From Saccharopolyspora rosea (GTDB taxonomy: Bacteria; Actinomycetota; Actinomycetes; Mycobacteriales; Pseudonocardiaceae), in assembly GCF_025643595.1 (NCBI RefSeq), contig NZ_CP102826.1, positions 4,464,001 through 4,528,000 of the forward strand: a stretch of 64,000 nt of DNA, written 5' to 3'. Under the pieces are notes generated by a model. That model ran no database searches, was not told the origin of the DNA, and saw only the letters and a program-made list of their open reading frames with translations. The stretch's first letter is position 1; every line of letters starts with the position of its first letter. Positions 7,002 to 60,038 of this stretch are shown here, piece by piece. The translations under genes and the position numbers were made by a program.

Positions 7002-7004
7002 TCC

Positions 7005-7018: not shown

Positions 7019-7129
7019 TGACCGGTTCGCCGACCGCGGCAGGAAGATGTCGCGGGGCCGGACCGGGACCAGCGGCAGCGGGACGCCGACGCCGAGCCCG
7101 CGTCGCCACCGCCGTGCCGGCGGGTTGCC

Positions 7130-7320
7130 CGACGACCCGGGAGATCCCCGGCAGCCGGACCGTCGACGGCCCGCCCGGTGGGCGGCGCGGTTCCGGTGCG
7201 CATCGCGTCGCGCGCCCGCAGTTCCAGCGGGTCCGCGCCGAGTTCGCGCGCGGGTCCGTCCACGTTGGACTCGCAGCCGCAGGTGGACCGGACGACGCTT
7301 CGAGATCCGCCCTGCCGTCG
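7130..7320 (-). pseudogene. Relic of a xanthine dehydrogenase/aldehyde oxidase molybdenum subunit
   Basis: The minus-strand frame carries ESNVDGPARELGADPLELR followed by ARDAMRTGTAPPTGR. This matches the segment found in molybdenum-binding subunits of xanthine dehydrogenases (the ES-x-D-x-x-ARELGxDPLELRxxN region followed by G...PTG). Nothing else of the roughly 750-residue protein is present in readable form: downstream the similarity fades and frames shift. I read the 7002-7386 gap as holding a decayed fragment. The match is by eye and modest. Confidence 0.4.
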
Positions 7321-7386
7321 CCCGGGGACGCGACCCGCGCAGCACCGGGGTCGTGTTCATCGGCCGCGACCCGGACCGCGACCGGC

Positions 7387-8565: not shown

Positions 8566-8837
8566 CGTAAGCGGACTCCCCTCGAATTCCCCTCGAAGCA
8601 CCAAAACCCGAAATCGTGCGATTCCGGCGATTTCGTCCGATGTGGAAACGATCTGCGTCGACGATACCGACACAATTCCGGGCCGCGAGCACCGATCCCC
8701 GTTCGCGGAACCGGAAAATGCACCGATTCGGACGCGTTCCCGGGTTCCGCACCGAGCGATTTCCGGGGTGGTCCATAATCGCGCCGACAACTCGCCGCGC
8801 CGCGGCGACCAGAATTGATCACCAGAATGGGCGAAAA

Positions 8838-9983
8838 GTGCACGCAATTGTCGGACCCGGGCCACAACTGCCGCAGTCGGTGACCGAGCAGGCCGGTGGA
8901 CGCAGCCCGCTGGAGTCCGTGGTGCTCGTCGTCGTGCTGGCGCTGCTCACCGTCGCGTCGATCGCGCTGATCCGGTGGCGGCGCCTGCGGCGGGCGACGA
9001 TCGCCATCCCCGTGCTGCTGGGCGTGCTGACCTGCGCGGCCGGGGTGAACAGCTACGTCGGTTACGTGCGGTCGCTGGACGACTTCGGGCGGCTCCTGCT
9101 GCTGGCCACCGGCGGCAACGGCGTCGTGGGCGACCCGGAGACGCCGCAGGTGCCGTTGCGGCCCGGTGGCGTCCGCGTCGTCGACCTGTCGATCCCCGAC
9201 CCCGCGCGGGGCGTGCCGACCGGGCGCACCCGCGTGCTGCTGCCACCCGGCTACGACAGCCCAGCCCAGGCGGGCAGGCGCTACCCCGTGGTGTACCTGG
9301 TGCACGGCTACCCCAGCGGCGGCCCGGACGACTGGCTGGGGCCGGGCGGCGCACCGCAGACCCTCCAGGCGCTCGCGGACGCCCACGCGGCGCCGCCGAT
9401 GATCGTGGTGGCCGTGGACGCCACCGCGGGCGCCGGGACCGACTGGGAGTGCCTGAACGTCCCGCACGGCCCGCAGCTGGAGTCCTACCTGACCACGACC
9501 GTGCCGCACGCGGTCGACGCCCGGTTCCGCACCCTCGCCGACCGCGGCGACCGCGCCATCGGCGGGATGAGCGGCGGCGCGTTCTGCGCGCTGAACCTCG
9601 GGCTGCGCAACCAGGCCCAGTACTCGGTCGTGCTGGCCACCGAGCCCTACGACGAGCCGGGCGAGGCGGGTGCGTCACTGCTGGCCGGGCATCCGGACCT
9701 GCTGCGCGCCAACACGCCGCGCGAGTACCTGCCGACGCTGCCGATCGAGCAGCCGCTGTCGGTGATGCTGCACGCCGGGATCATCGCCAGCAGTGACGTC
9801 GACCTCGCCCACCGCCTCGGCGAACAGCTCGCCGCGCGCGGCGTCCACGTCGCCGTCCGCGCCGAACCCGGCGAATGGCACACCTGGCGCACCGCCCGCA
9901 TCGGCCTGCCCTACCTGCTGACCTTCGCGGGCCAGCACTTCACCGGCGTCCGCCCGAACGTGCCGCCCGGCCACCTCGGCTGA
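8838..9983 (+). CDS. Membrane-anchored alpha/beta-hydrolase esterase, paralogue of 7387-8565
   Basis: About 381 residues from a GTG at 8838; a second GTG at 8880 (TEQAGGRSPLESVV) is an equally possible start, as neither has a good Shine-Dalgarno site. Two to three N-terminal membrane segments precede an esterase D-like domain with PVVYLVHGYPSGGPDDW, the nucleophile elbow GGMSGGAF and a histidine in EPGEWHTWR. The divergent neighbour has the same architecture, including an NxYxGY segment after the last membrane helix (NAYFGYY there, NSYVGYV here), so the pair probably arose by duplication and inversion. The 272-base divergent region is comparatively AT-rich and should hold both promoters. Confidence 0.8.
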   Translation: MHAIVGPGPQLPQSVTEQAGGRSPLESVVLVVVLALLTVASIALIRWRRLRRATIAIPVLLGVLTCAAGVNSYVGYVRSLDDFGRLLLLATGGNGVVGDPETPQVPLRPGGVRVVDLSIPDPARGVPTGRTRVLLPPGYDSPAQAGRRYPVVYLVHGYPSGGPDDWLGPGGAPQTLQALADAHAAPPMIVVAVDATAGAGTDWECLNVPHGPQLESYLTTTVPHAVDARFRTLADRGDRAIGGMSGGAFCALNLGLRNQAQYSVVLATEPYDEPGEAGASLLAGHPDLLRANTPREYLPTLPIEQPLSVMLHAGIIASSDVDLAHRLGEQLAARGVHVAVRAEPGEWHTWRTARIGLPYLLTFAGQHFTGVRPNVPPGHLG

Positions 9984-10020
9984 CCACCCGCGAGGCGACA
10001 TCGACGACGCTCGGTTCCCA

Positions 10021-10310
10021 CGTGGCAAGCGGCGTCAGCCGCTTTCTCTTTCGGTGAGTACGCAAGCAACTTGCACCGCCGCGGGTTCTCCGATGAGCAC
10101 AGGGGCGCGTCAGCGCCTCCTTGGGGGGCGGTGGTCGGGCGACGGGCGGGCGTCTCGCGAGGACAGCCCCGACGCCGTGTATTGGGCATACATCAGGAGG
10201 GGCTTCCGCAGTCGATGTGACTGCGGCGCGTCAGCGCCTCGTTGGGGGGTGGTGGTCGGGTGACGGGCGGGCCGCTGAGGTTCCGCCACCGGCACCGCCA
10301 CCCAAAACGA
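10021..10310. repeat. Intergenic repeat, copy R2 (long form)
   Basis: This long copy fills most of the 343-base gap between the esterase and lysX. It contains the hairpin module (10027-10052), the stem-forming AGCCCC...GGGGCT module (about 10164-10212), and two tandem copies of GCGTCAGCGCCTC followed by a GGGGGG-rich segment and GGTCGGGYGACGGGCGGGC. Its right end (GAGGTTCCGCCACCGGCAC) is shared with R8 and, inverted, with R3 and R7. Confidence 0.75.
10027..10052 (+). terminator. Terminator-like hairpin inside repeat R2
   Basis: AAGCGGC-gtca-GCCGCTT is followed by TCTCTTTC, giving a 7-bp stem and a pyrimidine-rich tail in the orientation of the esterase gene that ends 43 bases earlier. The same hairpin recurs in R3, R4 and R8. 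Confidence 0.55.
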
Positions 10311-10326
10311 CCCCGATGACGAAACC

Positions 10327-13300
10327 TCACGTCCGGCGCACCAGCGGGAACGCCAGTGTCTCCCTGATGGACCTGCCGGTCAGGAGCATGACGAGGCGGT
10401 CGACGCCGAGGCCGAGACCGCCGGTGGGCGGCATCGCGTACTCCAGGGCGCTGAGGAAGTCCTCGTCCAGTTCCATCGCCTCCGGGTCGCCCCCGGCGGC
10501 CAGCAGCGACTGCTCGGTCAGCCGCCGGCGCTGCTCGACCGGGTCGACCAGTTCCGAGTAGCCGGTGCCGAGCTCGGTGCCGAAGGCGACCAGGTCCCAG
10601 CGCTCGGCCAGCCGCGGGTCGGCGCGGTGCTGGCGGGTCAGCGGGGAGACCTCGGTCGGGAAGTCGGTGAAGAACGTGGGCCGGGTGGTGCGGGCCTCCA
10701 CCAACCGCTCGTACATCTCCAGCAGGACCGCGCCGCGGTCCCACTTCTCCTGGTAGGGAACCCCGGCCCGGGTGCACAGCGCCCGCAGCTCGGCGAGCGA
10801 CGTGTCGGCGGTCACCTCGGCGTCGACGGCCTCGGAGACCGCCTCGTTGACCGGCACCACGGGCCACTCCCCGCCCAGGTCGACCTTCTCGCCGTCGGCC
10901 CCGACGGCCAGCGGAGCGCCGTGCGCGGCGGTGGCCGCCGCCTGCACCAGCTGCTGGCACAGCTCGCGCATGGTCGTGTAGTCGCCGAAGGCCTGGTACG
11001 CCTCCAGCATCGTGAACTCGGGGTTGTGCTTGTGCGAGACGCCCTCGTTGCGGAAGGTGCGGCCGATCTCGAACAACTTCTCCACCCCGCCGACGCACAG
11101 CCGCTTCAGGTACAGCTCGGGCGCGATCCGCAGGTACAGCCGCATGTCGTAGGCGTTGATGTGGGTGGTGAACGGCCGGGCGTTGGCGCCGCCGTGCACC
11201 GGTTGCAGCACCGGCGTCTCGACCTCCAGGAAGTCCGAGCGCACCAGCGTGTCCCGCAGCGCGTGCACCGCGGCGCTGCGCGCCCGCAGCGCCTCCCGCG
11301 CCTCGGGGCGCACGATCAGGTCGACGTGGCGGCGGCGGACGCGCGCCTCCGGGTCGACCAGGCCGCGGTGCTTGTCCGGCAACGGGTGCAGGCACTTGGC
11401 CGCCAGCTCCCATTGGTCGGCGAGCACGGACAGCTCACCGCGCCGGGAGGTGACGATCTCGCCGGTCACCGACACCTGGTCGCCGATGTCGACCCGGTCG
11501 TGCCAGCAGCGCAACGTCTCGCGACCGCTGTCCGCGGCGGTCAGCATCACCTGCAGGTCGCCGGACCAGTCGCGCAGCGTTGCGAAGCACACGCCGCCGT
11601 GGTCGCGCAGCAGCACCACGCGGCCGGCCACCGAGGTGCGCTCGCCGGTGCGGGTGTCGGCGGGCAGGCCGCGGTGGCGTTCGACCACCGCGCCGCACCG
11701 CTCGGTGCGCGGCACCTCCACCGGGTAGGGGTCCACACCGGACTCCCGGAGCGCGGACAGCTTGTCGTGGCGCACCTGTTCCTGCTGCGGCTTGCCGTGT
11801 TCGACCACCGCGGGCTCGGTGTCCGGGGCCGGTGCCGGATTCCCCGTCGCGTCCAATGTGGACATTCGGCCGGGGCCGGGCAGGAAGCCCTCGGCGACCG
11901 CGGAGGCCACGCCGACGCGCGCCAGGTCGCGGCGCTCGGCGAAGGCGACGAACCGGGGCCACCAGTGCGGCCGGTACTTGACGTTGGAGCGGTACAGCGA
12001 CTCCAGCTGCCACCAGCGGGAGAAGAACAGCAGCAACCCGCGCCACGCGCGCAACACCGGCCCCGCGCCGATGCGGGCCCCCTCCTCGAACGCCGAGCGG
12101 AACATCGCGAAGTTCAACGACACCCGCTCCACGCCCAGCCGCGGCGCGGCCTGCACCAGCGAGGCCACCATGAACTCCACGACGCCGTTGTCGGCCTCCC
12201 GCTCGCGGCGCATGACGTCCAGCGACAGCCCGGTGCGGCCCCACGGCACCAGCGACAGCAGCGCGACCGGCGTGCCGTCGGCGTTCAGCGCCTCGACGAG
12301 CACGGCCTCGCCGTCCTGCGGGTCGCCGAGGCGCCCCAGCGCCATCGAGAAACCGCGCTCGGTCTCGGTGTCGCGCCACTGCTCGGCCAGCCGCGCGATC
12401 CCGGACATCTCCTCGGCGGGCACCTCCCGGTGCCGCCGGATGCGGGCGGTGTGCCCGGCGCGCTGCACCCGGTTGACCGCCTGCCGAACCGGGCGCATCT
12501 CCCGGCCGTCCAAGCTGAACTCGGCGGTGCGCAGGATCGCCTCGTCGCCCAGTTGCAGGATCTTCATCCCGGCCCGCGAGTAGGCGGTCGCGCCCGCCTC
12601 GCTGAGCCCCATCACCGCCGGGGTCCAGGTGTACTCCCGGCACATCATCAGCCACTTGTCGATCGCCGGCGCCCACGCCTCGGGGTCGCCGAGCGGGTCG
12701 CCGCTGGCCAGGCACACCCCGGCCACCACGCGGTAGGTCACGGCGGCCTTGCCGCTGTCGGAGAACAGCACGGCCTTGTCCCGCCGGGTGGCGAAGTAGC
12801 CGAGCGAGTCCTGCTCGCCGTGCTCGGCGAGCAGGCGCCGGATGCCTAGCTCCTCGTCCGGGTGCAGGGCGGCGGCCAACCGCTGGGCCCGCAGCAGCAG
12901 GAACAGCGCGGTGAACAGCGCGGCGGTGCCGAACAGGCCGAGCACCAGGTTGACCCAGCCGGGCGCGTGCCCGACGCGGGTGACGTCGAACACGACCGCA
13001 CCGCCGAGCACCCGCTCCAACGTCCACGTCAGGCGCTCCCACGGGTCGCGCAGCGAGCCTGGGAACAGCGTCACCAGGCCCCATCCGACGGCCACGGACA
13101 CCGACACGATCAGCACGAACGCCGACGCGGCCTGGTGCGCGCTGCCGCGCTTGGCGCGGCCGAAGAACTCGCCGCGCACCCGCACCAGCAGTCCGATCGC
13201 CAGCAGTGACAGGACGATGTTCGCCACGAACATCCAGACGTGGGCGATGGTGAGCTGGTAGCGGCTGCTCATCTCGTCGATGTCGGACCACAGCGCCGGG

Positions 13301-13665
13301 GCGTGCCGCCACAGCGCCACCAGGACCACGACGTCGGCGATCGTCTGCAGCACCAGGATCGCGACGAGGATCCGGTGCGCCAACGCCTTCCGGCGGTTGA
13401 GCGCGGCGGCCAGGACCGCGAGGAACGCGCCGTAGGCGAGGTTCGGCGGCGCCGGGAACACCACGTCGTCGACGATCCGCCGCACCGGCTGCACGTGTCC
13501 GAACAACACCAGGCCCACCGCCGAGAACACGCACAGCGCCGCGATCAAGTAGACGATGCCTGCGGCGACGCCCGGCACCCTGGCCTGCCACCGGTGCCCG
13601 GGAACAACCCCGGTGGCCGCCTTCCCGCGCCGCTCGTCCGGCGGTGCGGCGACCTGCTGGACCAC
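10327..13665 (-). CDS. lysX: Bifunctional lysylphosphatidylglycerol synthetase / lysyl-tRNA synthetase LysX
   Basis: An 1112-residue fusion that both charges tRNA with lysine and transfers lysine to phosphatidylglycerol, giving resistance to cationic peptides. Six to seven transmembrane helices (about 25-270) are followed by the MprF-type aminoacyl-lipid transferase domain (about 280-600; LGYFATRRDKAVLFSDSGK) and a class II lysyl-tRNA synthetase with an OB-fold anticodon domain (about 690-780) and catalytic core (VETPVLQPVHGGANARPF, FEIGRTFRNEG, and GLGLGVDRLVMLLTG). The GTG at 13665 follows GAGGAGG; the upstream 23-residue extension is not needed. Domain order and length match mycobacterial LysX. 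A degenerate dispersed palindrome (11851) lies in the linker between the two enzymes. Repeat R2 lies downstream. Confidence 0.95.
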   Translation of the reverse strand: MVQQVAAPPDERRGKAATGVVPGHRWQARVPGVAAGIVYLIAALCVFSAVGLVLFGHVQPVRRIVDDVVFPAPPNLAYGAFLAVLAAALNRRKALAHRILVAILVLQTIADVVVLVALWRHAPALWSDIDEMSSRYQLTIAHVWMFVANIVLSLLAIGLLVRVRGEFFGRAKRGSAHQAASAFVLIVSVSVAVGWGLVTLFPGSLRDPWERLTWTLERVLGGAVVFDVTRVGHAPGWVNLVLGLFGTAALFTALFLLLRAQRLAAALHPDEELGIRRLLAEHGEQDSLGYFATRRDKAVLFSDSGKAAVTYRVVAGVCLASGDPLGDPEAWAPAIDKWLMMCREYTWTPAVMGLSEAGATAYSRAGMKILQLGDEAILRTAEFSLDGREMRPVRQAVNRVQRAGHTARIRRHREVPAEEMSGIARLAEQWRDTETERGFSMALGRLGDPQDGEAVLVEALNADGTPVALLSLVPWGRTGLSLDVMRREREADNGVVEFMVASLVQAAPRLGVERVSLNFAMFRSAFEEGARIGAGPVLRAWRGLLLFFSRWWQLESLYRSNVKYRPHWWPRFVAFAERRDLARVGVASAVAEGFLPGPGRMSTLDATGNPAPAPDTEPAVVEHGKPQQEQVRHDKLSALRESGVDPYPVEVPRTERCGAVVERHRGLPADTRTGERTSVAGRVVLLRDHGGVCFATLRDWSGDLQVMLTAADSGRETLRCWHDRVDIGDQVSVTGEIVTSRRGELSVLADQWELAAKCLHPLPDKHRGLVDPEARVRRRHVDLIVRPEAREALRARSAAVHALRDTLVRSDFLEVETPVLQPVHGGANARPFTTHINAYDMRLYLRIAPELYLKRLCVGGVEKLFEIGRTFRNEGVSHKHNPEFTMLEAYQAFGDYTTMRELCQQLVQAAATAAHGAPLAVGADGEKVDLGGEWPVVPVNEAVSEAVDAEVTADTSLAELRALCTRAGVPYQEKWDRGAVLLEMYERLVEARTTRPTFFTDFPTEVSPLTRQHRADPRLAERWDLVAFGTELGTGYSELVDPVEQRRRLTEQSLLAAGGDPEAMELDEDFLSALEYAMPPTGGLGLGVDRLVMLLTGRSIRETLAFPLVRRT

Positions 13666-13871
13666 TGATCCTCCTCGGCCGTTCCTGTTCGACGACGCGA
13701 CCAATCTACGACCGCCGGCACCGGCCGCGCGCACGCCCCGAATCGAATGCCAGTTTTGCGGCGAAACGCGAATTCGGTCGGCGGACAGCGGGCACCATTC
13801 GGACTCAACTCACGCGTTCCGGTGACCGATGGGGACGCGGAGGAAACGACCTGGAACCGGGAGGAACGCCG

Positions 13872-14321
13872 ATGACCGGAACGCGCCTGGCCGCCGCAGC
13901 GCTCGCCGCGGGCCTCGTGGGGGTGGCCGCGCCCGCCGCCTGGGTCGCGCTCGACCAGCGGCCCGCCGAGTCCGAACCCCGCGCCGCGGGCGCGCCGTAC
14001 GTGGAGACCACCCTGCTGTTCGGCACGCAGCGGCCGGACGGCGGCGCGCCCGTCACCGACGAGCAGTTCCACGGGTTCCTCGACGAGGTGGTCACGCCGC
14101 TGTTCCCGGACGGCCTGACCGTCGAGGACGCCTACGGCCAGTACCGGGACTCGCACGGCCGCATCGAGCGGGAGCGCTCCTACCGGCTCACCCTGCTCCA
14201 CCCGGAGTCCGAAGCGCCCCGCGACGACGCCCGGATAGACCACGTCCGCAAGACCTACCAGCAGCGTTTCGCCCAGGAGTCGGTGGCCCGCGTCGACGAG
14301 CGCACCCGCGTCGATTTCTGA
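13872..14321 (+). CDS. DUF3574 secreted protein
   Basis: A 149-residue protein with an N-terminal signal peptide (LAAAALAAGLVGVAAPAAW, about residues 6-24) and one DUF3574 domain, recognisable from VETTLLFGTQRPDG, FLDEVVTPLFPDGLTVEDA and RERSYRLTLL. The family is exported and has no established function. The ATG at 13872 is preceded by GGGAGGAA. The gene diverges from lysX across a 206-base gap in which I see no other feature. Confidence 0.85.
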   Translation: MTGTRLAAAALAAGLVGVAAPAAWVALDQRPAESEPRAAGAPYVETTLLFGTQRPDGGAPVTDEQFHGFLDEVVTPLFPDGLTVEDAYGQYRDSHGRIERERSYRLTLLHPESEAPRDDARIDHVRKTYQQRFAQESVARVDERTRVDF

Positions 14322-14410
14322 GCCGATCCGAGCGGCGGATGCGGCGCGCGGGATTCGACGCTTTTCCCACCAATTCGCCGAATCCCGCGGGCCGGCTGGG
14401 GAAACATCGC

Positions 14411-14429
14411 GCAAAAGGAGTTCAAACAG
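14411..14429. repeat. End fragment of the interspersed repeat
   Basis: GCAAAAGGAGTTCAAACAG is close to the inverted form of the R3 left end (CTTTGAACTCCTTTTGC) and sits just before the dehydroshikimate dehydratase stop codon. No other repeat module is seen here. Confidence 0.4.
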
Positions 14430-16278
14430 TTCCCCAACCGCCGTTGGCCAAACGTTGGCGGCGGTGCGCGGCCATTCGGACCGGGGCGTTGACCTCACCG
14501 CGACCCGCGTAGCCGCCGGTGCGTTCGACGATCTCGAAGAAGACGCGGGAGCCGAGCAGTTCGGTGCACAGGTGCAGGATCTCGCCGTGCTCGTCGCGGT
14601 CGTAGAGGATCGAGAGCTCGCGCAGCGCCGCCGCCCGCTCGGGCGGCAGGTCGAAGCGGGCCTGCAGGTCGTCGTAGTAGTTGTCCGGGATGCGCAGGAT
14701 CGGCGCGCCGCGCTCGCGCATGGCGCGCGCGGTCGCCACGGCGTCGTCGGTGCGCAGCGCGATGTGCTGCGGGTGGCGGACCGCGGGAGCCCACTGGCCC
14801 CGGCGCACCAGGGTGCCGTCCAGGGCCAGGCGCACCGAGCCGGTCTCGTCGGCGGCGGTGCGGGTGCGGACCATCCCGAACGGCGCGGCGAACTCGGTCG
14901 CCGGCCGGGCCTGCAGGCCGACGACCGCGCGGTAGAACAGCGCCGCCTCGTCGAACTGGTCGAACGGCTGGGTCAGCGCGACGTGGTCGACACCGGTCAC
15001 CCCGGTTCCCGGGTCGCGCTCGCTCCCGGTGGCGGCGAAGTCCGACAGCCAGCTGGTGGTGTCGTCGGCTCCGGTGCGGCAGAAGAACACCGCCGTGCCG
15101 TCCGGTGCGGCGACCGAGGACAGCTCGGTCTCCTCGGGGCCCCGGGTGCGCGGCAGGGTCGGGGCGAGCATGGCGGCGGCCCGCCGCGCCGACCGCGCGG
15201 GGTCGGCGCTCTCCACGGCCAGCGCCCCGATCGCGGCGCCGCCCTCGGCGCCGGACTCGTCCGCCGTCGAGCGGTTGAGCAGCACCCGCGCGTCGCCCTG
15301 TTCCCACAGCTCCACGGGTTTGCTGCGGTGCTGCCCGGTCCGGCTGAAGCCGAGCGCGGCCAGCGCGGCGGCCAGCCGGGGCGCGGAGACCTCGTCGGCG
15401 GCGAGTTCGGCGAAGGCGTACCCGGCCAGCCGCGGAGCCGGGGCCAACCCGGCGTCGGGCAGCCCGAGCTGTTCCTCCAGCAGCAGCAACGACCGCATCG
15501 CGTCCACCGCGGCGGGACGCGGGTCGGCCTGCCGGAACACGTCGTTGAACACCTCCAGGGACCACGGCCCCGCGTACCCGGTGGACAGCACGGCGTCGGT
15601 GAAGCCCCGCAGGTCGAACGCGCCCTGGCCGGGGAACAACCGGTGGTGCCTGCTCCACTGGAGGATGTCCATGTCCAGCTTCGGCGCGTCGGCCAGCTGC
15701 AGGAAGAACAGCTTCTCGCCGGGGATGGTGCGGATCAGCGACGGATCGCCGCCCCGGGACAGCACGTGGAAGCTGTCCAGGCACAGGCCCAGCGCCGGGT
15801 GGTCGGCGCGCCGCACGATCCGCCACGAGTGCTCGTAGGTGTTGACGAACCGGCCCCAGGCCAGCGCCTCGTAGGCGATGCGCATGCCGCGCTCGGCCGC
15901 GCGCGCGGCCAGCAGGTGCAGCTGCTCGGCGGCCAGCTCGTCGTCGTCCACCGCGTCCGGCGACACCGACGAGCACACCAGCATCGTGTCCACGCCCAGC
16001 TGCGCCATCACGTCGAACTTCGCCTCGGCGCGGCGCAGGTTGGCGCGCAGCACGTCCGGCGGGACCGCCTCGAAGTCCCGGAAGGGCTGGTAGAGGTCGA
16101 TGTCCAGGCCGAGTTCGGCGCAGCAGCGGCGGATCCGGGCCGGGGACCACGCCGAATGCACCAGGTCGTTCTCGAACAGCTCGACGCCGTCGAACCCGGC
16201 CGCGGCGGCCGCGACCAGCTTGTCCTCCAGCGTTCCGGACAGGCAGACGGTGGCGATCACGCGCCTGGCGTCAGCCAT
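14422..16278 (-). CDS. qsuB: 3-dehydroshikimate dehydratase, QsuB-type two-domain protein
   Basis: A 618-residue fusion of a sugar-phosphate isomerase/epimerase-like TIM barrel (about 1-280) with a 4-hydroxyphenylpyruvate-dioxygenase-like vicinal oxygen chelate domain (about 310-610). QsuB of Corynebacterium has this architecture and converts 3-dehydroshikimate to protocatechuate; the N-terminal half carries the activity there. Visible barrel motifs include GFDGVELFENDL, YEALAWGRFVNTYEH and LCLDSFHVLSRGGD. The C-terminal half keeps HPPD-like pieces (GVDHVALTQPFDQFD, FEIVERTGGYAG). The start at 16278 overlaps the end of the shikimate dehydrogenase gene by eight bases, so the two are translationally coupled. 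The cluster context (dehydrogenase, transporter, TetR) supports quinate/shikimate catabolism. Confidence 0.88.
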   Translation of the reverse strand: MADARRVIATVCLSGTLEDKLVAAAAAGFDGVELFENDLVHSAWSPARIRRCCAELGLDIDLYQPFRDFEAVPPDVLRANLRRAEAKFDVMAQLGVDTMLVCSSVSPDAVDDDELAAEQLHLLAARAAERGMRIAYEALAWGRFVNTYEHSWRIVRRADHPALGLCLDSFHVLSRGGDPSLIRTIPGEKLFFLQLADAPKLDMDILQWSRHHRLFPGQGAFDLRGFTDAVLSTGYAGPWSLEVFNDVFRQADPRPAAVDAMRSLLLLEEQLGLPDAGLAPAPRLAGYAFAELAADEVSAPRLAAALAALGFSRTGQHRSKPVELWEQGDARVLLNRSTADESGAEGGAAIGALAVESADPARSARRAAAMLAPTLPRTRGPEETELSSVAAPDGTAVFFCRTGADDTTSWLSDFAATGSERDPGTGVTGVDHVALTQPFDQFDEAALFYRAVVGLQARPATEFAAPFGMVRTRTAADETGSVRLALDGTLVRRGQWAPAVRHPQHIALRTDDAVATARAMRERGAPILRIPDNYYDDLQARFDLPPERAAALRELSILYDRDEHGEILHLCTELLGSRVFFEIVERTGGYAGRGEVNAPVRMAAHRRQRLANGGWGTV

Positions 16279-17143
16279 GCGCACCTCCCTTGTCGACGAG
16301 TTCGGCGAAGTGGCGCAGCATCCGCTCGGCGTCCGGCGCGACGCCGGTGAACAGCTCGAACGCGTCGGCGGCCTGGAAGACCGCCATGCCCCCACCGTCG
16401 AGGACGCGACAACCCCGCGCCCGCGCGGCGGTGACCAGTTCGGTGTTCAGCGGCCGGTAGACGACGTCGGCCACCCACAGCTCGGGACGCAGCGCCTCGA
16501 CCGGGACCGGCAGTCCGGGGTGGGCGGCCATGCCGGTCGGCGTGGCGTGCACGAACCCGTCCGCGGCGGCCAGCGCCCGCGCCGCGGCGTCGGCGTCCCC
16601 CGCTTCGGCGCGGTCGGCGCCGAACCGGGTGCGCAGCGCCCCGGCGAGGGCGTCGCTGCGCCGGGCGTCGACGTCGAGCACCCGCAACGTCCCGACGCCC
16701 AGCGACAGCAGTGCGTGCGCGACCGCGGCACCGGCGCCACCGGCCCCGAGCAGCACGACGTGGTCCAGCCGCGCGCCGGGCAGGCCGCGCGCGAAGGAGC
16801 GGGCGAACCCGGAGCCGTCGGTGTTGTGCCCGACGGCGCGCCCGTCGGCGAGGACGACGGTGTTGACGGCGCCGAGGGCGGCGGCGTCCGGGGCGAGCTC
16901 GTCGAGGTGCTTGATCACCCGCTGCTTGCCGGGGTGGGTGATGTTGAGCCCGTCGTAGCCGGCCAGCCGCGCGGCGTCGAGCAGCTCGCCGATGTCGGGG
17001 CGGCCGAGCACGTCCAGATCCCAGCGGCGGTAGAGGTAGCGCAGCCCGAGTTCGTCGGCCTCCCGTTCGTGCAGCGGGGGGCTCAGCGACGGGCCGATGC
17101 CCGCGCCGATCAGGCCGATGAGGAAGCTGTCCTGGTTGCGCAC
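16271..17143 (-). CDS. qsuD: Shikimate/quinate dehydrogenase
   Basis: A 290-residue NAD(P)-dependent dehydrogenase of the AroE/QsuD family. The substrate motif is LIGAGIGPSLSPPLHE, the catalytic lysine and lid residues are in GLNITHPGKQ, and the cofactor loop is LLGAGGAGAAVAHAL. The NITHPGKQ variant resembles catabolic QsuD rather than biosynthetic AroE, which fits its partner qsuB. I chose the GTG at 17143, with GGAG about eight bases upstream, because homologues begin with a similar short leader before LIGLIG; the alternative ATG at 17188 would put a perfect palindromic operator inside the coding region. It heads a two-gene operon with qsuB, divergent from the TetR gene. Confidence 0.88.
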   Translation of the reverse strand: MRNQDSFLIGLIGAGIGPSLSPPLHEREADELGLRYLYRRWDLDVLGRPDIGELLDAARLAGYDGLNITHPGKQRVIKHLDELAPDAAALGAVNTVVLADGRAVGHNTDGSGFARSFARGLPGARLDHVVLLGAGGAGAAVAHALLSLGVGTLRVLDVDARRSDALAGALRTRFGADRAEAGDADAAARALAAADGFVHATPTGMAAHPGLPVPVEALRPELWVADVVYRPLNTELVTAARARGCRVLDGGGMAVFQAADAFELFTGVAPDAERMLRHFAELVDKGGAHG

Positions 17144-53276: not shown

Positions 53277-53673
53277 CGAGTGCGTCCCGAGCGGCGGCAG
53301 CCGCTTTCTCGTTCCGCGAGTGGTCTCGCAGCCGACACCGCCTGAGGTGCGTGTCTTTGAACCTGCTCCCGGAAGGGGTGTGGCAAGCGGCGACAGCCGC
53401 TTTCTCTTTCGGTGAGCGGTCTCGCAGCCCGCACCGCCGCGGGTTCTCAGCGGTCGTCTCGCGAGGACAGCCCCGACGCTGTGTATTGGGCATACATGAG
53501 TCGGGGCTCCCGGAGCCGGTGTGGCTGTGGCGCGTCAGCGCCTCCGTGGGGGGCGGTGGTCGGGTGACGGGCGGGCCGCTGAGGTTCCGCCACCGGCACC
53601 GCCACGCAAATCGAGTTCGACGGCAGGCTCTGAAGGTTCCGCCACCCACGACGAGTTCGAAGACGGGTGCTCA
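53277..53673. repeat. Intergenic repeat, copy R8 (longest)
   Basis: The longest copy, filling the 394-base gap between tatA and ctaG. In order: two hairpin modules AGCGGC..GCCGCT followed by TTCTC (about 53291-53313 and 53387-53412), a 9-bp stem AGCCCCGAC...GTCGGGGCT (53469-53508) around CATACATGAG, the GCGTCAGCGCCTC and GGTCGGGTGACGGGCGGGC modules also in R2, and two copies of the inverted end (GAGTTCGACGGCAGG and GAGTTCGAAGACGGG). The TCA of the last module is the stop codon of the ctaG tail. Confidence 0.8.
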
Positions 53674-53883
53674 GCCGCGGCGCCGAAAGCGTTCCGCCAG
53701 CACCGGGTCGTGCTCCCACCACAGACCGCCGTCCGTGCCGTCCTCGTGCGCGTCCTCGTCGAGCTGCCGGTCGACCTCGGCCGCCTCGTGCTCGTCGTCG
53801 CGCTTCCACTGCCGCAGGAGCGCACCGAGGAACGGCAGGCCGGCCACGTCCCCGCCGATCCACACCACCCCGGCGGCGATGAT
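53671..53883 (-). pseudogene. C-terminal tail of ctaG behind an in-frame amber codon
   Basis: Directly after the ctaG stop (TAG, 53884-53886) the same frame stays open for 70 codons: IIAAGVVWIGGDVAGLPFL and ALLRQWKRDDEHEAAEVDR, ending RRRG. This is what the end of a CtaG-type protein should look like (last membrane helix and charged cytoplasmic tail with Trp-Glu-His). In homologues the position of the stop is commonly glutamine before such a segment, so a CAG-to-TAG change is the simplest explanation. Whether the tail is translated by readthrough, or lost, cannot be told. Confidence 0.7.
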
Positions 53884-54639
53884 CTAGTCGGTGCGCACGC
53901 TCGGGCCCCAGGTGCGGGCCAGCGCCTCGTAGTAGTGCGGCGCCCGCAGCGGGCCCAGCCACAGCACCAGGCCCAGCGCGCCGTCGAAGATGACTTCGGC
54001 CAGCGAGATCCCGAACGACACGACGTGCATGTCGTCGCGCGGCGTCCGGTCCACCCGCAGCCGCGTCCAGAAGTAGACGAACCCGGCGAACACCAGCATC
54101 CCGTGCATCAGCGCGTCCACCACCGACGACCGCAGCGTCAGCTCGTACAACGGCGTCAGGTACAGCGCGAACGGCACGCCGACCAGCAGCGCGGTCACCA
54201 CGCCCGGGAACGTCAGCAGCTTGGCCGCATCCGAGCGGCTCGCCGCCTCGACGCGGTCGGCGATCCGGCGCGGGACGGCGCGCACCAGCAGCGTCAGCGG
54301 CGCGCCGAGCGCCAGCAGCAGCGGGGTGACCATCAGCAGCACGGTGTTCTGCACCGCCCGCACCCAGAACAGGGTGTCCGAGTAGACGCCGAGGAACGAC
54401 GTGGTGACCAGCAGGACCGTGGCCAGCGCGCCCGCGAACGCCGCCGCGCGCGCCGCGGGCCAGTGCGCTCCGGCGGCGCGCAGCGCGCGCACGCCCCACC
54501 AGTAGGCCGCGCCGAGCACCACCACGACCACCAGCGCGGCCGGGTCCGGCGTCCAGGACGTGAACACCCGCTCCAGGGTGAGTTCGGGAGCGGGGACGGG
54601 AGGTGTCGGGAAGAACATGCTCATCTCTTCGGGGGTCAT
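53884..54639 (-). CDS. ctaG: CtaG-type cytochrome c oxidase assembly / copper membrane protein
   Basis: A 251-residue protein (to the amber codon) of the Caa3_CtaG family with about seven transmembrane helices. Visible blocks: FTSWTPDPAALVVVVVLGAAYWW, VQNTVLLMVTPLLLALGAP, HGMLVFAGFVYFW and ARTWGPSVRTD. CtaG proteins help build heme-copper oxidases or handle copper at the membrane. The ATG at 54639 overlaps the stop of the lipoprotein gene (ATGA), making this the last cistron of the NRPS operon. The product lacks the usual last helix because of the TAG at 53884; with readthrough it would be 322 residues. Confidence 0.82.
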   Translation of the reverse strand: MTPEEMSMFFPTPPVPAPELTLERVFTSWTPDPAALVVVVVLGAAYWWGVRALRAAGAHWPAARAAAFAGALATVLLVTTSFLGVYSDTLFWVRAVQNTVLLMVTPLLLALGAPLTLLVRAVPRRIADRVEAASRSDAAKLLTFPGVVTALLVGVPFALYLTPLYELTLRSSVVDALMHGMLVFAGFVYFWTRLRVDRTPRDDMHVVSFGISLAEVIFDGALGLVLWLGPLRAPHYYEALARTWGPSVRTD

Positions 54640-55415
54640 GCGCCCTGCCCGCGACCGGCGAGAGCGGTGTTCACCAGGTCCACGGCCAGGTCCCGGGTGG
54701 GTGCGGGGACCGGCAGCTCGTCGTCGGTGTACCAGGAGTCCGTGGCCTCCGGGTGCGGGCCGACCAGCCCGAAGGAGCCCCGTCCGTGGGAACCGACCAC
54801 CGCGGCGGGTTGGCCGCTGCGGTAGTGCGCGAGCACCGAGACCGGGGCGGCGGCTTCCAGCCTGAAGTACGGGCCGTCCTGGAAGTAGACCTGCCTGCCG
54901 CGCTGCCGCCAGTCGACGTCGACGACCGCTCCCGCGGTGTGGCTGATCTCGGAGCCGGGCGATCCGGCGTAGCGGTCGGTGTCGCCGGGCAGCAGCCCGA
55001 GCCCCGGGCTGCTGCCCGCGAGGTAGGCGCCGAGGCAGAAGCCCAGGTAGCAGCCACCGCCCCGGACGAAGTCGCGGATCGCCCCGGCGCTGCGGCGCAG
55101 CCGCCACCAGGCCGGGCCGACGTCACCGCCGCCCGGGTAGGCGTACAGCACCGCGCCGGACAGCGACTCGGCGTCCAGCGGCACGTCCTCGCCGGTGCCG
55201 GTGAAGGCCACCCGGTAGTTCAGCGGTGGCGCGGACAGCAGCTCCGCCACCGCCTCGGCCGTGCCCTGCGGCGCGCCGCTCCCGCGGTGCACCAGCGCGT
55301 TCGGCCGGGCGGCGGGCGGCGCCGGGCGCGGCGCGGGCGGCGGCGCGCACGCGGTGGCGAGCCCGGCGACGGCTGCGCCCAGGAAGACCCGGCGAGGAAT
55401 GCGGGGATTTGTCAC
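54636..55415 (-). CDS. Tat/lipobox-type BPL_N (GATase-like) lipoprotein
   Basis: A 259-residue protein with a Tat-like signal (PRRVFLGAAVAGLATAC) ending in a lipobox (LATAC), so it is probably a lipoprotein on the outer face of the membrane. The rest is a class I glutamine-amidotransferase-like BPL_N domain: nucleophile elbow LGFCLGAYLAG, YFQDGP, and the distal His-x-Glu in GPHPEATDSWY, so the Cys-His-Glu triad is kept. The GTG at 55415 stands one base after the stop of the paralogous gene before it. BPL_N proteins have no settled activity. Position behind a membrane NRPS suggests processing of its product. Confidence 0.85.
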   Translation of the reverse strand: MTNPRIPRRVFLGAAVAGLATACAPPPAPRPAPPAARPNALVHRGSGAPQGTAEAVAELLSAPPLNYRVAFTGTGEDVPLDAESLSGAVLYAYPGGGDVGPAWWRLRRSAGAIRDFVRGGGCYLGFCLGAYLAGSSPGLGLLPGDTDRYAGSPGSEISHTAGAVVDVDWRQRGRQVYFQDGPYFRLEAAAPVSVLAHYRSGQPAAVVGSHGRGSFGLVGPHPEATDSWYTDDELPVPAPTRDLAVDLVNTALAGRGQGA

Positions 55416-55416
55416 G

Positions 55417-56082
55417 TCATGCTCGCATCGTCGTGTCGATCAGGTCGTGGCCCAGGTCCGGGCGGATTCCGTCCGGGTTGGACAGACCGTGTTCGGCGTA
55501 CCAGGACTCGTCGGCCTCCGGGTGCGGCCCGCAGACGCCGACCGCTCCGGCGCCGAAGCGCACCACGGCGGCGGCGACGGTCCCGTTGTCGTAGGTGGCC
55601 AACACGGTCGGCTCCGCCCCGGGCTCGAACCAGAAGTGCGGCCCGTCCTGGAAGTACACGTGGCGCGGCCGGTCCCGCCAGCGCACCCGGACCACCGTGT
55701 CGGACTCGTCGGGCACGCTCGCCCCTGCCGAGGCGATGTACTGGTCGGTGTCCCCGGGCAGCAACCCGAACCCCGGGGTCGCCCCGGCGAGGTAGCCGCC
55801 GAGGCAGAACCCGAGGTACCGGCCGCCGGAGCGGACGAACTCGCGGATCCGCGCGCGGTGCCGCCGCATCCGGCGGTAGGCCGGGGCGAGGTCGCCGCCG
55901 CCGGGCTGGGCGTAGAGCGCGGCGTCGCGCAGCGCTCCGGCGGCCAGCTCGTCCGCCCCGGCGAGGCGAACGCGGAACCGCCACGCCGAGGCGGCGAGCA
56001 GCTCGGCGACCGCCTCGGCGCACCCCGGCGACGTGGCGGGCCCGCGGTAGACCACCGCGACCGGTGCGGCCACCGCGCTCAC
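55417..56082 (-). CDS. Cytoplasmic BPL_N (GATase-like) protein, paralogue of 54636-55415
   Basis: A 221-residue protein without signal peptide. It shares the BPL_N fold and triad with the next gene: YLGFCLGGYLAG, YFQDGPHFWFEPG, and GPHPEADESWY. The GTG at 56082 overlaps the NRPS stop (GTGA), so its translation is coupled to the synthetase. Having one cytoplasmic and one exported copy suggests the same chemistry on both sides of the membrane. The family includes the N-terminal domain of eukaryotic biotin ligase but no biotin-binding motif is seen here. Function unknown. Confidence 0.83.
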   Translation of the reverse strand: MSAVAAPVAVVYRGPATSPGCAEAVAELLAASAWRFRVRLAGADELAAGALRDAALYAQPGGGDLAPAYRRMRRHRARIREFVRSGGRYLGFCLGGYLAGATPGFGLLPGDTDQYIASAGASVPDESDTVVRVRWRDRPRHVYFQDGPHFWFEPGAEPTVLATYDNGTVAAAVVRFGAGAVGVCGPHPEADESWYAEHGLSNPDGIRPDLGHDLIDTTMRA

Positions 56083-59000
56083 CCGACCGCCCGGCACGGG
56101 ATCCCCCGCCACCTGGTGCCGGGCTCCAGGTGCTCGCCCTTCATGACCAGCGACAGCGCGTCCAGCCCGGCGCCGCGGCCGACCACCCCGTCGTAGAGCA
56201 CCACCGACCGGCCGCCGACCGAGGCGCCGGAGCGGACGGTGACCGTCGACATCTTCATCACCCGGTCCTCGAACAGGTGCGTCTGCAGCGAGGTGGCCGG
56301 GCCGACCGCCACGTCGTCGCCGAGCCGCACCAGGTCGAACTCGGTGAGGTAGGTGGTCGACAGCCACACCCGCCGGCCGATGCGCGCGCCGAACAACCGC
56401 AGCATCACCGGCAGCAGCGGTGTACCCGCGAGCCCGCCGAGCAGCACCGGGACGGCCGCGCTCTCGTACAGGCCGGTGACGAACTCGGTGCGCCGCACGA
56501 ACCGGCTCCACAGCGGTTCCACGCGGGGCCGGTAGCGGCCGACGACCACCCACTTCAGCAGCACCACGGTCAGCACCACCGCCAGTGCCGCGGCGGCGCC
56601 GACCACGGGGGCCAGCGGCGCGGCCACGGCCAGGCCCCCGGCGAGCACCAGCCGCCACAGCGCCAGCACCGCGCCGGTCAGGGCCAGCGACAGCAGCGCC
56701 GGGGGCAGCGCGATCCGGAAGAACTCGATGAGCAGCCGCTCGGCCACCCGGCCCCGGCCGGGGCGGAAGGTGAGCTCGTCGGCGAAGCTCGCGCTCTGCT
56801 CGCGGCGCGGCAGGAACATCGGCGGCGATCCCAACCACGAACCACCCTCGGTGGTGCCCTCCGGCGGGGTCACGCTGTGCACGCCGACCAGCGAGTTCGC
56901 CGCCAGGTCGGCACCGGCGCGGGCCAGCGCGGCGTTGCCGGCGAACGACCGGTGCTCCAGCCGGGTGCGGCCCAGCACGACGTGGCCGCGGTGGAAGGTC
57001 GCCGGTCCCAGGCTCGCCATGTCGGCGACGAAGCACTCGTCGCCGAGGTCCAGCAGGTCGGGGTCGAGGTGCGAGACGGTGGAGACCTCCGCGCGGCTGC
57101 CGATCCGCGCGCCGAGCGCCCGCAGCCACGGCGGGGTGTACAGCGTCGCGTACAGCGCGTTGGTCGCGGCGAGGCTGAACGCCAGCAGCCGGTCCGCGAC
57201 GTGCTTGCGCAGCCCCAGCGCCGTGCGCGCCGGGTGCACCCCGACCGGGGCCCGGTGCAGCACGAGGCGCTTGCCCACGGCCACGACCAGGCAACTGGTC
57301 AGCACGAACAGCGGCCCGCTGACCACCGCGGCGACCAGCGCACCGGGCAGGCCGTAGCGGAACCCGGCCAGCACGACCAGCACCAGCGACGGGACCGCGA
57401 CGAGGAACGGCAGCAGTTCCAGCCCCAGCCAGGCGACCGCGAACCCGAGCAGCAGCCGGACCGGCCAGCCCGCCGCGCTCCGCGCACCGATCCGGGACAG
57501 CACCGGGTGCGGTTCGTCGGTGCGGCGCGCGGGCGAGCCCGACCAGCGGCGGCCCGCGCCGGCCTCCTGCCCGGAGGCCAGCAGGGACTGCTCGTCGAGG
57601 TGCGCGCCGTCGCCGAGCCGGGCCCCGGGCATCAGCACGGCGTTGGCGCCGACGAACGCGCCGGCACCGACGGCGACCGGGCCCACGTGCAACCGGCCGC
57701 CCTCGACGTGGGTGGTCTCCAGCCGCGCGCCGTAGCCGACGGAGGCGTCGTCGCCGATCTCGACCAGCGACGGGATGCCGACGCTCGCGGCGGCGAGGTG
57801 GGTGCGCGCACCGACGCGGGCGCCGAGCAGCCGCAGGTAGGGCGCCAGCAGCGGCGATCCGCTCAGCGTGCCCAGCGGCGCGAGGCCGAGCAGCGCCTGC
57901 GCCGACCAGACCCGCAGGTACGTCGCGCCCCACAGCGGGTAGTGGCCGGGGCGCAGCCGGGCCGTCAGCAGGCGGCAGGCCAGCACCGGCAGCAGCAGTC
58001 GCAGCAGCACGAAGCCGACCGCCACCGCCGCGGCGCCCTGCCAGATCGCGGTCACGTCGAGCCGCCCGCCCCGCAGCGCGAGCACCCCGAGCAGCGGCAG
58101 GGCGAACACCAGCGCCAGCACGTACGCCACCGCCAGCTGGGCGGTACCGGCCACCGCGACCCGACCGGTGCTGTGGGTGCACGGCGGCGGCTGGTCGGCG
58201 GCGGGTTCGGCCGGGTCGCCGGTGTCGGTGAGGTGCTCGGTGAGCTGCCGCACGGTCGGGTTGGCGTAGAGCGCCGCCACCGACAGCGCGGGAGCGGTGC
58301 CGCTCTCGCGCAGCCGGGAGACGAGCGTGGTCGCCAGCAGCGAGTGCCCGCCGAGGTCGGTGAAGAAGTCCGCGTGCACCGACAGCTCGTCGACGGCCAG
58401 GTTCAACACCTGGGCCCAGACCTCGGCGACGGCGCGTTCGACCGGGGTGGCGGGCGGCTCGTGCGCGGCACCGGCGGCGACGAGCCTGCCGCCCACCGGG
58501 TCCGGCAGCGCCGACCGGTCGACCTTGCCGCTGGGCAGCATGGGCAGCGCGTCGAGCACCTCGACGTAGGCCGGGACCATGTAGGGCGGCAGCCTGCGCC
58601 GCATCCCGTCGTGCAGTTCCGCCACGAACGCCCCGTCGCGCGGCTCGGGCGAGGACCGGGTCACGTACGCGGCGAGCTCGGTCCCGCCGGGCAGCGCGCG
58701 CACCACCGCCCCGCCGACCGAACCGTGCTCCAGCAGCAGGCTCTCCACCTCCTGCAGGTCCACCCGGTGGCCGCGGACCTTCACCTCGCTGTCGGCCCGG
58801 CCCAGGTACTCGATTTCCCCGCCCGGCAGGACCCGCCCCAGGTCGCCGGTGCGGTAGTAGCGGCCTTCGGCGTCGGTGCGGAACTTCTCCGCGGTCAGCT
58901 CGGGGCGGTTCAGGTAGCGGCGCGCGACGCCGACGCCGCGCACGCAGATCTCGCCGACCTCGCCGTCGGGGACGAGGCGGTCCGCGTCGTCGCGGATCTC

Positions 59001-60038
59001 GACCCGGTAGGTGGGCATCGGGGTGCCGATGGTCACCGGGCGGCCGGGGCGCAGTTCCGCCCAGGTGGCGGTCACGGTCGTCTCGGTGGGGCCGTAGGTG
59101 TTGAGCATGCGGCGGCCGGGACGGCTCCACCGCTCGACCAGTTCGGCCGGGCACGCCTCGCCCCCGACGAGGAGCGTGCGCAGCGCGGGCAGGTCGTCCT
59201 CGACGGTCGCCAGGACGGTGGGCACGCAGCACAGGACCGTGACGCCGCTGCTGCGCAGGAACTCGGCCAGCCCCGGTCCGACGCGGGCCTCGCCGTCGGG
59301 CCCGGCCACGACCGTGGCGCCGACCGCCCAGGCGGGCCAGATCTCCTCGATGGAGAAGTCGAACGCCAGCGTCATGCCCTGGTAGACGCGGTCGTCGGAG
59401 CGCACGCCGTAGACGTGGGTGGCGACCTCGACGAAGTTGCAGATGCTCGACTGGGCCACCTCGACGCCCTTGGGGCGCCCGGTGGAACCCGAGGTGTAGA
59501 TCACGTAGCAGGCGGGGTCCCCGGACGCGGTCGCCCGGGGGCGTTCGGCGGTCCCGCCTCCGGCGGCCCGCTCGGCGCGCTCGACGTCGACGACCGGGCA
59601 CGGCTGCTCGCCGAGCTCCTGCGGGGCGTCGACCAGCAGCAGCGCCAGTTCGGCGTCAGCGGCGATGAACTCGATGCGGTCCGGCGGCGCGGCGGGGTCG
59701 ATCGGCACGTACGCCGCACCGGTCTTGAGCACCGCCAGCAGCGCGACGTAGGCGCGGACGGAGCGCCGCAGCATGATGCCGACGCGCGCTCCGACTCCGA
59801 CGCCGCGGGAGCGCAGGTGGTGCGCCAGCGCGTTGGCCCGCTCGTCGAGTTCTCGGTAGGTCAGCCGCCGGTCGCCGCACTCGACCGCGATGGCGGTGGG
59901 CATGACGTCGCACGTCGCCTCGAAGACGTGGTGCAGCGCGGTCGGGGCGGGCGTGCGCGGCTCGTGGCCGCGGACCCGGGGCTGCGGACGCCGGGAGGGG
60001 TGGGCGGTCACCACACCCGATACCCGAAATTCGTTCAT
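56079..60038 (-). CDS. Pls/PosA-type membrane NRPS (adenylation-thiolation-membrane repeat)
   Basis: A 1319-residue synthetase. Adenylation domain about 35-515 (A3 YTSGSTGRPKG, A5 NTYGPTETT, A7 YRTGDL, A8 GRADSEVKVRGHRV, A10 PSGKVDRSAL), thiolation domain with FFTDLGGHSLLAT (Ser566), then a membrane region of about six helices with three acyltransferase-like left-handed beta-helix repeats (e.g. ASVGIPSLVEIGDDASVGYG). The terminal part is that of epsilon-poly-L-lysine synthetase (Pls) and its relatives, which polymerise one amino acid through side-chain peptide bonds. Binding-pocket residues read by eye as D-F-E-C-L-G-T-V-T-K; Asp235-type and Glu at the third position suggest a basic amino acid. 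The ATG at 60038 is used. Confidence 0.92.
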   Translation of the reverse strand: MNEFRVSGVVTAHPSRRPQPRVRGHEPRTPAPTALHHVFEATCDVMPTAIAVECGDRRLTYRELDERANALAHHLRSRGVGVGARVGIMLRRSVRAYVALLAVLKTGAAYVPIDPAAPPDRIEFIAADAELALLLVDAPQELGEQPCPVVDVERAERAAGGGTAERPRATASGDPACYVIYTSGSTGRPKGVEVAQSSICNFVEVATHVYGVRSDDRVYQGMTLAFDFSIEEIWPAWAVGATVVAGPDGEARVGPGLAEFLRSSGVTVLCCVPTVLATVEDDLPALRTLLVGGEACPAELVERWSRPGRRMLNTYGPTETTVTATWAELRPGRPVTIGTPMPTYRVEIRDDADRLVPDGEVGEICVRGVGVARRYLNRPELTAEKFRTDAEGRYYRTGDLGRVLPGGEIEYLGRADSEVKVRGHRVDLQEVESLLLEHGSVGGAVVRALPGGTELAAYVTRSSPEPRDGAFVAELHDGMRRRLPPYMVPAYVEVLDALPMLPSGKVDRSALPDPVGGRLVAAGAAHEPPATPVERAVAEVWAQVLNLAVDELSVHADFFTDLGGHSLLATTLVSRLRESGTAPALSVAALYANPTVRQLTEHLTDTGDPAEPAADQPPPCTHSTGRVAVAGTAQLAVAYVLALVFALPLLGVLALRGGRLDVTAIWQGAAAVAVGFVLLRLLLPVLACRLLTARLRPGHYPLWGATYLRVWSAQALLGLAPLGTLSGSPLLAPYLRLLGARVGARTHLAAASVGIPSLVEIGDDASVGYGARLETTHVEGGRLHVGPVAVGAGAFVGANAVLMPGARLGDGAHLDEQSLLASGQEAGAGRRWSGSPARRTDEPHPVLSRIGARSAAGWPVRLLLGFAVAWLGLELLPFLVAVPSLVLVVLAGFRYGLPGALVAAVVSGPLFVLTSCLVVAVGKRLVLHRAPVGVHPARTALGLRKHVADRLLAFSLAATNALYATLYTPPWLRALGARIGSRAEVSTVSHLDPDLLDLGDECFVADMASLGPATFHRGHVVLGRTRLEHRSFAGNAALARAGADLAANSLVGVHSVTPPEGTTEGGSWLGSPPMFLPRREQSASFADELTFRPGRGRVAERLLIEFFRIALPPALLSLALTGAVLALWRLVLAGGLAVAAPLAPVVGAAAALAVVLTVVLLKWVVVGRYRPRVEPLWSRFVRRTEFVTGLYESAAVPVLLGGLAGTPLLPVMLRLFGARIGRRVWLSTTYLTEFDLVRLGDDVAVGPATSLQTHLFEDRVMKMSTVTVRSGASVGGRSVVLYDGVVGRGAGLDALSLVMKGEHLEPGTRWRGIPCRAVG

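Follow-up and report, generated by a model that had tools for sequence, protein, structure and literature searches.

A membrane peptide synthetase coupled to two amidotransferase-like proteins in Saccharopolyspora rosea, a candidate system for a short diamino acid homopolymer

Homopoly(amino acids) such as polylysine are food preservatives. In the epsilon-poly-L-lysine system of Streptomyces albulus/noursei, a membrane synthetase with adenylation (A), thiolation (T) and terminal domains is encoded by pls, and the gene for a polymer enzyme, pldII, follows with a 4-bp overlap (PMC4361855). PldII degrades polylysine and sits outside the membrane, and repression of pldII lowers tolerance (PMC9223678). 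We describe a comparable operon in Saccharopolyspora rosea, located in a stretch of 64,000 nucleotides (positions 4,464,001 to 4,528,000 of contig NZ_CP102826.1, assembly GCF_025643595.1), which we call the window. Here, the gene for a Pls/PosA-type membrane non-ribosomal peptide synthetase (NRPS) is followed by two genes for proteins of the BPL_N group, which resemble class I glutamine amidotransferases (GATases).

Two further groups of synthetases are close to this locus. The synthetase for poly(2,3-diaminopropionic acid) (PDAP) of S. albulus PD-1, identified by disruption and heterologous expression (PMC4668381), has the same architecture. The systems for gamma-poly(2,4-diaminobutyric acid) (gamma-poly-Dab, PDAB) are pldA-dat-ask, the known arrangement for poly-L-Dab (PMC8117764), and pddA-pddB-pddC-pddD, and in these the partners of the synthetase are monomer-supply enzymes (PMC8225329, PMC8117764). 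A study of PosA reported that Asp and Glu at positions 1 and 3 of the A-domain pocket code are essential for diamino acids, and that the Glu is kept across cationic homopolymer synthetases. The same study proposed that position 2 sets the chain length of the monomer, with Ala in lysine synthetases, Met in ornithine synthetases, and Phe in PDAP and PDAB synthetases (PMC10522769).

All genes of the S. rosea operon lie on the minus strand. The NRPS gene (56079-60038, 1319 residues) overlaps the first BPL_N gene (55417-56082) by the GTGA at 56079-56082, and a single base, position 55416, separates the latter from the second BPL_N gene (54636-55415). Re-reading of the sequence confirmed this three-gene chain as it had been described in the original prediction. 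Comparison with pls-pldII brings out three differences. The lysine-type loci of the present analysis have the pocket code DAESIGTVVK, whereas that of the window NRPS is DFECLGTVTK. The partner of pls is an aminopeptidase, whereas the partners in the window are predicted GATase-fold cysteine proteins, which by profile search do not belong to the M1 peptidase family. Finally, pls-pldII has no pair of partners inside and outside the membrane. At the lysine-code locus of S. noursei the partner is assigned to the M1 family by a profile model, and is presumably pldII.

Profile searches placed the A domain at residues 39-505 of the NRPS (58524-59924; AMP-binding, 4.3e-84) and the T domain, with a GGHSL motif, at residues 536-603 (58230-58433; PP-binding, 1.7e-14). 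The terminal domain spans residues 630-1314 (56097-58151), where hydropathy peaks and a Hexapep match suggest soluble hexapeptide-like blocks between membrane segments. It scored 587.5 bits with TIGR02353 (cut-off 423.1), and the genome contains one TIGR02353 gene over cut-off. No condensation or thioesterase family was matched in the NRPS at E 0.01. The domain searches thus agree with the earlier description of one A domain, one T domain and a Pls-like membrane end. In the pocket code, read at the core-motif positions of GrsA, Asp, Phe and Glu occupy positions 1, 2 and 3. Together with the A-T-TIGR02353 architecture, the Asp and Glu agree with the claim that the NRPS is of the type that makes homopoly(amino acids), and judged by sequence the protein is a putative Pls/PosA-type synthetase. 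Because Phe at position 2 marks PDAP and PDAB synthetases, 2,3-diaminopropionic acid (Dap) or 2,4-diaminobutyric acid (Dab) is the predicted monomer; this residue does not separate the two.

The association between the NRPS and BPL_N genes was not limited to the window. Homologues of the first BPL_N protein were detected in 22 of 150 genomes of the same family, the window's genome included, and in none of the 6 other same-genus genomes listed in that search. After omission of one of the 22 genomes (G016, weak match), 20 other same-family neighbourhoods were compared: the NRPS gene stood beside BPL_N in 14, BPL_N was an orphan in 5, and the match was weak in 1. A scan of genomes from 84,980 species identified 270 BPL_N relatives, the best 80 of which, and thus near relatives, were kept as 74 named loci. 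A terminal-domain NRPS was present at 63 of these 74 loci: in 61 cases it immediately precedes BPL_N, in the same orientation and no more than 1.8 kb away, and in two (L064 and L066) the genes stand head to head. Hosts include Streptomyces, Micromonospora, Dactylosporangium, Microbispora, Kutzneria, Rhodococcus, Nocardia, Amycolatopsis, Actinomadura and Georgenia. Of 83 pairs in which the junction was measured, with some genomes entering twice, 34 showed the 4-bp overlap between the two genes. The original prediction would have fallen had BPL_N genes never co-occurred with Pls-type NRPS genes elsewhere, and they clearly do: the association is solid and extends well beyond a local oddity. Among the papers listed in searches of the open PMC literature, none was recognised, from its title or the beginning of its abstract, as linking a BPL_N or GATase-like protein with a Pls-type synthetase.

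Readable codes of the BPL_N-coupled synthetases conformed to the pattern DFE[YC]xGTVTK (L056 and L080, which are broken reads, gave partial codes only). Other codes in the named set came from the lysine-code NRPS of L066, the second NRPS of L122, and one unrelated A domain (L115). L122, from Streptomyces pinistramenti, contains both types in tandem (5880-16476): a DFE-code NRPS with BPL_N is followed by a lysine-code NRPS with an M1 peptidase.

A second sample was drawn from the class without regard to BPL_N. Among its 296 genomes, TIGR02353 exceeded the cut-off in 73 and BPL_N was found in 7, and 84 of its synthetase loci were compared, the window's locus included (loci L124-L153 with only about 1.5 kb on each side). 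BPL_N followed the synthetase at all 5 loci with a DFE[YC]xGTVTK code, compared with 0 of the 79 other loci. These five loci, the window and four of one genus code, represent two independent lineages rather than five, and the four are full or near duplicates of Microbispora loci in the named set; four of the five also had M1. The lysine code DAESIGTVVK was present at 63 of the 84 loci; an M1 peptidase lay downstream at 44 or more of these (a lower bound, as the M1 model missed matches seen by tblastn in L141, L147, L150 and L153), and BPL_N at none. At 15 loci no A domain was found within 0.9 kb upstream, and one locus had the code DFECLSAVTK; neither group had BPL_N. Two other BPL_N-bearing genomes of the sample contained, respectively, an orphan with signal (L206 in G374) and a weak partial match (G301).

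At L124, L135, L136, L208-L212, L227, L246, L248, L250-L252 and L259, the TIGR02353 match had no A domain immediately before it, and at some of these loci an A domain lay downstream.

Both BPL_N proteins exceeded the Pfam cut-off of 24.2 bits (58.4 for the first copy and 46.6 for the second). The model is that of the N-terminal domain of eukaryotic biotin-protein ligase, and the best stretch covered only positions 3-98 of its 283. A part in a biotin-protein ligase was considered and rejected, because the profile search returned BPL_N alone and no ligase catalytic domain. As had been noted before, Cys and His-x-Glu are seen in both sequences. The presumed Cys-His-Glu triad was invariant in 127 of 127 aligned rows (123 different), as were a Gln-Asp pair, one Trp, one Tyr and one Pro. 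An AlphaFold2 model of the BPL_N protein (pLDDT 94.1, pTM 0.92) was compared with the PDB by Foldseek, and matched HisH (9.5e-9), the PdxT-type structure 2nv2 (TM 0.66/0.75) and gamma-glutamyl peptidase (7e-7), whereas phmmer against PDB sequences found nothing relevant. The BPL_N proteins are therefore predicted to have a class I GATase fold. Class I GATase-like hydrolases also include gamma-Glu-GABA hydrolase, and some members cut isopeptide bonds. The BPL_N proteins would share with this group the predicted fold and the triad; they differ by low identity (9-21% in the structural alignments listed) and by an exported, lipoprotein-like form.

The two copies are predicted to reside in different compartments. 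A twin-arginine/lipobox-like signal was read at residues 1-23 of the second copy (55347-55415), in line with the original prediction, and the first copy is predicted to be cytoplasmic. According to a home-made rule for signals, 71 of 72 NRPS-adjacent copies had no predicted signal, 35 of 37 second copies (among them the window's exported copy) had one, and so did 13 of 18 copies at loci without NRPS. For these counts and for the tree of BPL_N proteins, L051, L055, L059 and L090 were left out as repeats of L031, L030, L032 and L033, while L255-L258 and L206 were kept, although they repeat or nearly repeat named loci. The tree separated a mostly cytoplasmic, NRPS-adjacent group from an exported group, with a support of only 88 for the deep split and both window copies among their own kind, the exported one on a long end branch. 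It required 12 compartment changes, compared with 49.7 in shuffles. Signal-bearing rows on the cytoplasmic side were L064, L069, L088 and L032. Recent tandem duplication of the two genes is thought unlikely, as each copy groups with its own kind. The signal split and the separation of both copies in the tree suggest that the inside/outside pair is old and has been kept.

Two further observations concern the BPL_N group. L034, L038, L042, L044 and L206 are orphan BPL_N genes of lipoprotein-like type with no NRPS nearby, and L069 and L088 are relatives of 56% identity on short contigs of a Ktedonobacteraceae assembly.

The genome of S. noursei A-2-1 carries exactly two genes that match TIGR02353. 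One combines the lysine code with a neighbouring M1-type gene, the other the code DFEYVGTVTK with BPL_N. In the NCBI taxonomy, S. albulus PD-1, which produces PDAP, is placed in the same species, under the name S. noursei PD-1. Since a species with one lysine-code and one BPL_N-linked synthetase thus includes a PDAP producer, the BPL_N-linked group is the best candidate for poly-Dap synthetases. The PD-1 synthetase (PMC10522769) and the window NRPS both have Phe at position 2. The passages of the cited work used here name no BPL_N partner for the PD-1 enzyme.

We propose that the NRPS and the two BPL_N genes form an operon that makes a cationic homopolymer with isopeptide bonds from a short diamino acid, for which Dap is the likeliest candidate, and that the BPL_N proteins act on the polymer, probably as isopeptide hydrolases; to this proposal as a whole we give about an even chance. 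The domain anatomy, gene linkage, pocket code, predicted compartments, invariant triad and predicted fold were computed, whereas the Dap monomer, hydrolysis and self-protection are inferred. The A domain would activate the diamino acid and load the carrier (T) domain, and the membrane-flanked blocks of the terminal domain would polymerise it. The substrate of the BPL_N cysteine enzymes may then be the polymer or a chain still attached to the carrier. The inner copy, whose synthesis would be coupled to that of the NRPS, would trim or release chains and remove polymer left inside; it takes the position that PldII has in the polylysine system, and would share its part in trimming and self-protection. 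The outer, membrane-anchored copy may limit chain length and protect the cell surface. Isopeptide cutting on both sides of the membrane appears to be the best reading because of the place of BPL_N in the PldII position and the conservation of an outer copy.

Several observations weigh against this proposal. The published PDAP synthetase gene has 4338 bp (about 1445 residues), whereas the S. noursei A-2-1 frame has at most 1422 codons and the window NRPS 1319 residues. Genes for Dap supply were not evident: in the window's genome the best match to the SbnA family had 254.1 bits (cut-off 349.95) and to the SbnB family 121.7 bits (cut-off 326.9), and SbnA was not found over cut-off in S. noursei A-2-1 or Dactylosporangium fulvum. 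The absence of Dap genes from the cluster itself is no surprise, because in PD-1 they lie away from the synthetase (PMC4668381). SbnA matches over cut-off occur in the Kutzneria genome G446, at a distance from this cluster. BPL_N genes also occur without a DFE-code synthetase. Eleven of the 74 named loci lacked an NRPS, seven of them with enough sequence to show it (at L069, L071, L088 and L112 the contigs were too short or cut too near to judge), and at L066 from Streptomyces humicola (5256-10657) a lysine-code Pls-type NRPS stands head to head with an exported BPL_N gene. Given these loci, the family extends beyond Dap clusters. GH42 domains and IFT52 were also among the Foldseek matches, so that the reaction cannot be read from the fold alone, and we know of no activity for any member of the BPL_N group.

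The relation to M1 peptidases is also less simple than a replacement would predict. Among 64 DFE clusters (counted after removal of six loci with little downstream sequence and of L051, L055, L059 and L090), 26 had only a second BPL_N gene, 18 only an M1 gene, 0 both and 20 neither; the M1 gene counted for L122 belongs to the adjoining lysine-code NRPS. The mutual exclusion speaks for the proposal, but allowing for kinship it was not significant (sign test, median p 0.25, with 0 pairs going the same way and about 3 the other way). None of the 18 M1-bearing clusters lacks the inner BPL_N gene, as the count requires, indicating that BPL_N does not simply replace M1; this, too, counts against the proposal.

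In the Kutzneria genome G446, a TIGR02353 gene without an A domain directly upstream (L159) was found about 5 kb from an SbnA-type gene that exceeded the cut-off.

One alternative, unlikely as we consider it, is that the polymer is poly-Dab or is made of another short diamino acid. In its favour, PDAP and PDAB synthetases do not differ in the Phe at code position 2, Cys at position 4 is common to the window and Dab-type loci, and no SbnA or SbnB match in the window's genome reached its cut-off. Two loci with the code DFECLSAVTK, L205 (S. olivoreticuli) and L253, show what a Dab-type locus may look like: a class-III aminotransferase gene directly follows the NRPS gene, then comes an aspartate kinase gene, as in pldA-dat-ask (PMC8117764), and there is no BPL_N beside. 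In the 64-kb window and the 94 cluster loci, however, neither the L205 aminotransferase nor the aspartate kinase had a match at 1e-10; L253 alone had them. In a terminal-domain tree that left out the repeats L051, L055, L059 and L090 (by a quick method, with a long-branch warning), the DFECLSAVTK synthetases of these two loci formed a separate branch next to the BPL_N-linked NRPSs, the nearest to them, and the window NRPS appeared as an early branch of the BPL_N-linked group. The lack of these matches and the separate branch count against poly-Dab.

The main rival to isopeptide cutting is chain release. The inner BPL_N protein could be the missing release enzyme, akin to a stand-alone thioesterase, that frees the chain from the carrier, and the exported copy a specialised degrader. 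The lack of a thioesterase match in the synthetase would be explained in this way, the release step for PDAP is stated as unknown (PMC4668381), and the close coupling of the NRPS and BPL_N genes would fit a stoichiometric partner, as would the grouping of signal-free NRPS-adjacent copies. However, none of the 63 lysine-code relatives have BPL_N beside them, and Streptomyces lividans given the PDAP synthetase gene yielded PDAP, although the section that reports this experiment does not state the flanking genes on the construct (PMC4668381). We regard release as improbable.

Less probable still is a role of the BPL_N proteins as genuine subunits of a glutamine amidotransferase or as transamidases, which would amidate the polymer end or supply ammonia for the monomer. 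The GATase subunits HisH and PdxT are the best structural matches, the triad is complete, and in S. albulus PD-1 the amino group of Dap has been proposed to come from released ammonia (PMC4668381). However, no ammonia-using synthetase was seen among the identified neighbours (20 open reading frames; 10 of 45 recurrent groups listed). Moreover, the conserved exported copy should be able neither to use cytoplasmic ATP nor to feed ammonia inside, and with no ATP outside the cell, ATP-dependent amidation is a disfavoured role for it. The original idea of a GATase-like pair acting on each side of the membrane therefore stands in part: the predicted inside/outside split is conserved, whereas amidation by the exported copy is hard to reconcile with it.

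Other genes also recur in the clusters. Of the 64 DFE clusters, 38 had an HGSNAT_cat-type acyltransferase gene nearby, 18 a DDAH-type gene and 18 an M1 gene; the original prediction did not mention these families. All three are missing from the window's operon, and no other of the 64 clusters combines a second BPL_N gene with the lack of an HGSNAT gene, so that the operon looks like a reduced form of the cluster. HGSNAT- and DDAH-family genes of the same genome lie outside the window, the former 12 kb beyond it and only 32% identical to the cluster type. In L033 (9284-10558) and most twin clusters, the HGSNAT_cat-type gene lies between the two BPL_N genes. Its product would fit an N-acetylase of polymer amino groups. 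The DDAH/arginine-deiminase-like gene, exemplified by L050 (9114-9905) and L036 (6376-7164), is mostly 61-69% identical across genera and often lies in the cluster.

Downstream of the second BPL_N gene lies a ctaG-like frame (53671-54639). In the original prediction it was the fourth gene of the chain, and the ATGA overlap at 54636-54639 is indeed present, but the frame is not open: an in-frame TAG at codon 252 of 322 (53884-53886) had been overlooked. With the stop read as X, the frame matched Caa3_CtaG with 201.8 bits, but scored only 28.1 bits with the equivalog model TIGR02737 (cut-off 279.35). The TAG position is a sense codon in two same-genus relatives, and the frame past the stop still matches both, which argues for a recent break, a sequencing error or a suppressed stop. 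A CtaG match was found at 0 of 90 distinct other loci (94 with repeats, 20 same-family and 74 named). Among 21 other same-genus genomes, two have a close orthologue (a partial one in one case), and neither orthologue has an NRPS or BPL_N gene nearby; four further ctaG-like genes exist in the window's genome. The ctaG frame is best seen as a bystander whose position after the second BPL_N gene is due to chance. A single functional unit of all four genes, with CtaG as the link between the polymer and copper or oxidase assembly, is therefore extremely improbable despite the ATGA overlap, and on the neighbourhood evidence CtaG was rejected as a member of the system.

In the most far-reaching reading, the BPL_N group would be a new and widespread family of cysteine enzymes that hydrolyse isopeptide bonds (or release chains) and serve poly-Dap-type polymers alone. 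The inside/outside pair would be an old two-compartment device for immunity and chain length, kept for a membrane-bound polymer synthetase and built on the GATase fold instead of a zinc peptidase; we would put this reading somewhat short of an even chance. From the pocket signature, the partner family and its distribution over compartments can be predicted in dozens of actinobacteria. Product release, control of chain length and survival of the polymer in poly-Dap makers thus become accessible to tests with two small proteins and a single polymer. Should the BPL_N proteins cut isopeptide chains, they would be new polymer-cutting tools and markers for finding producers.

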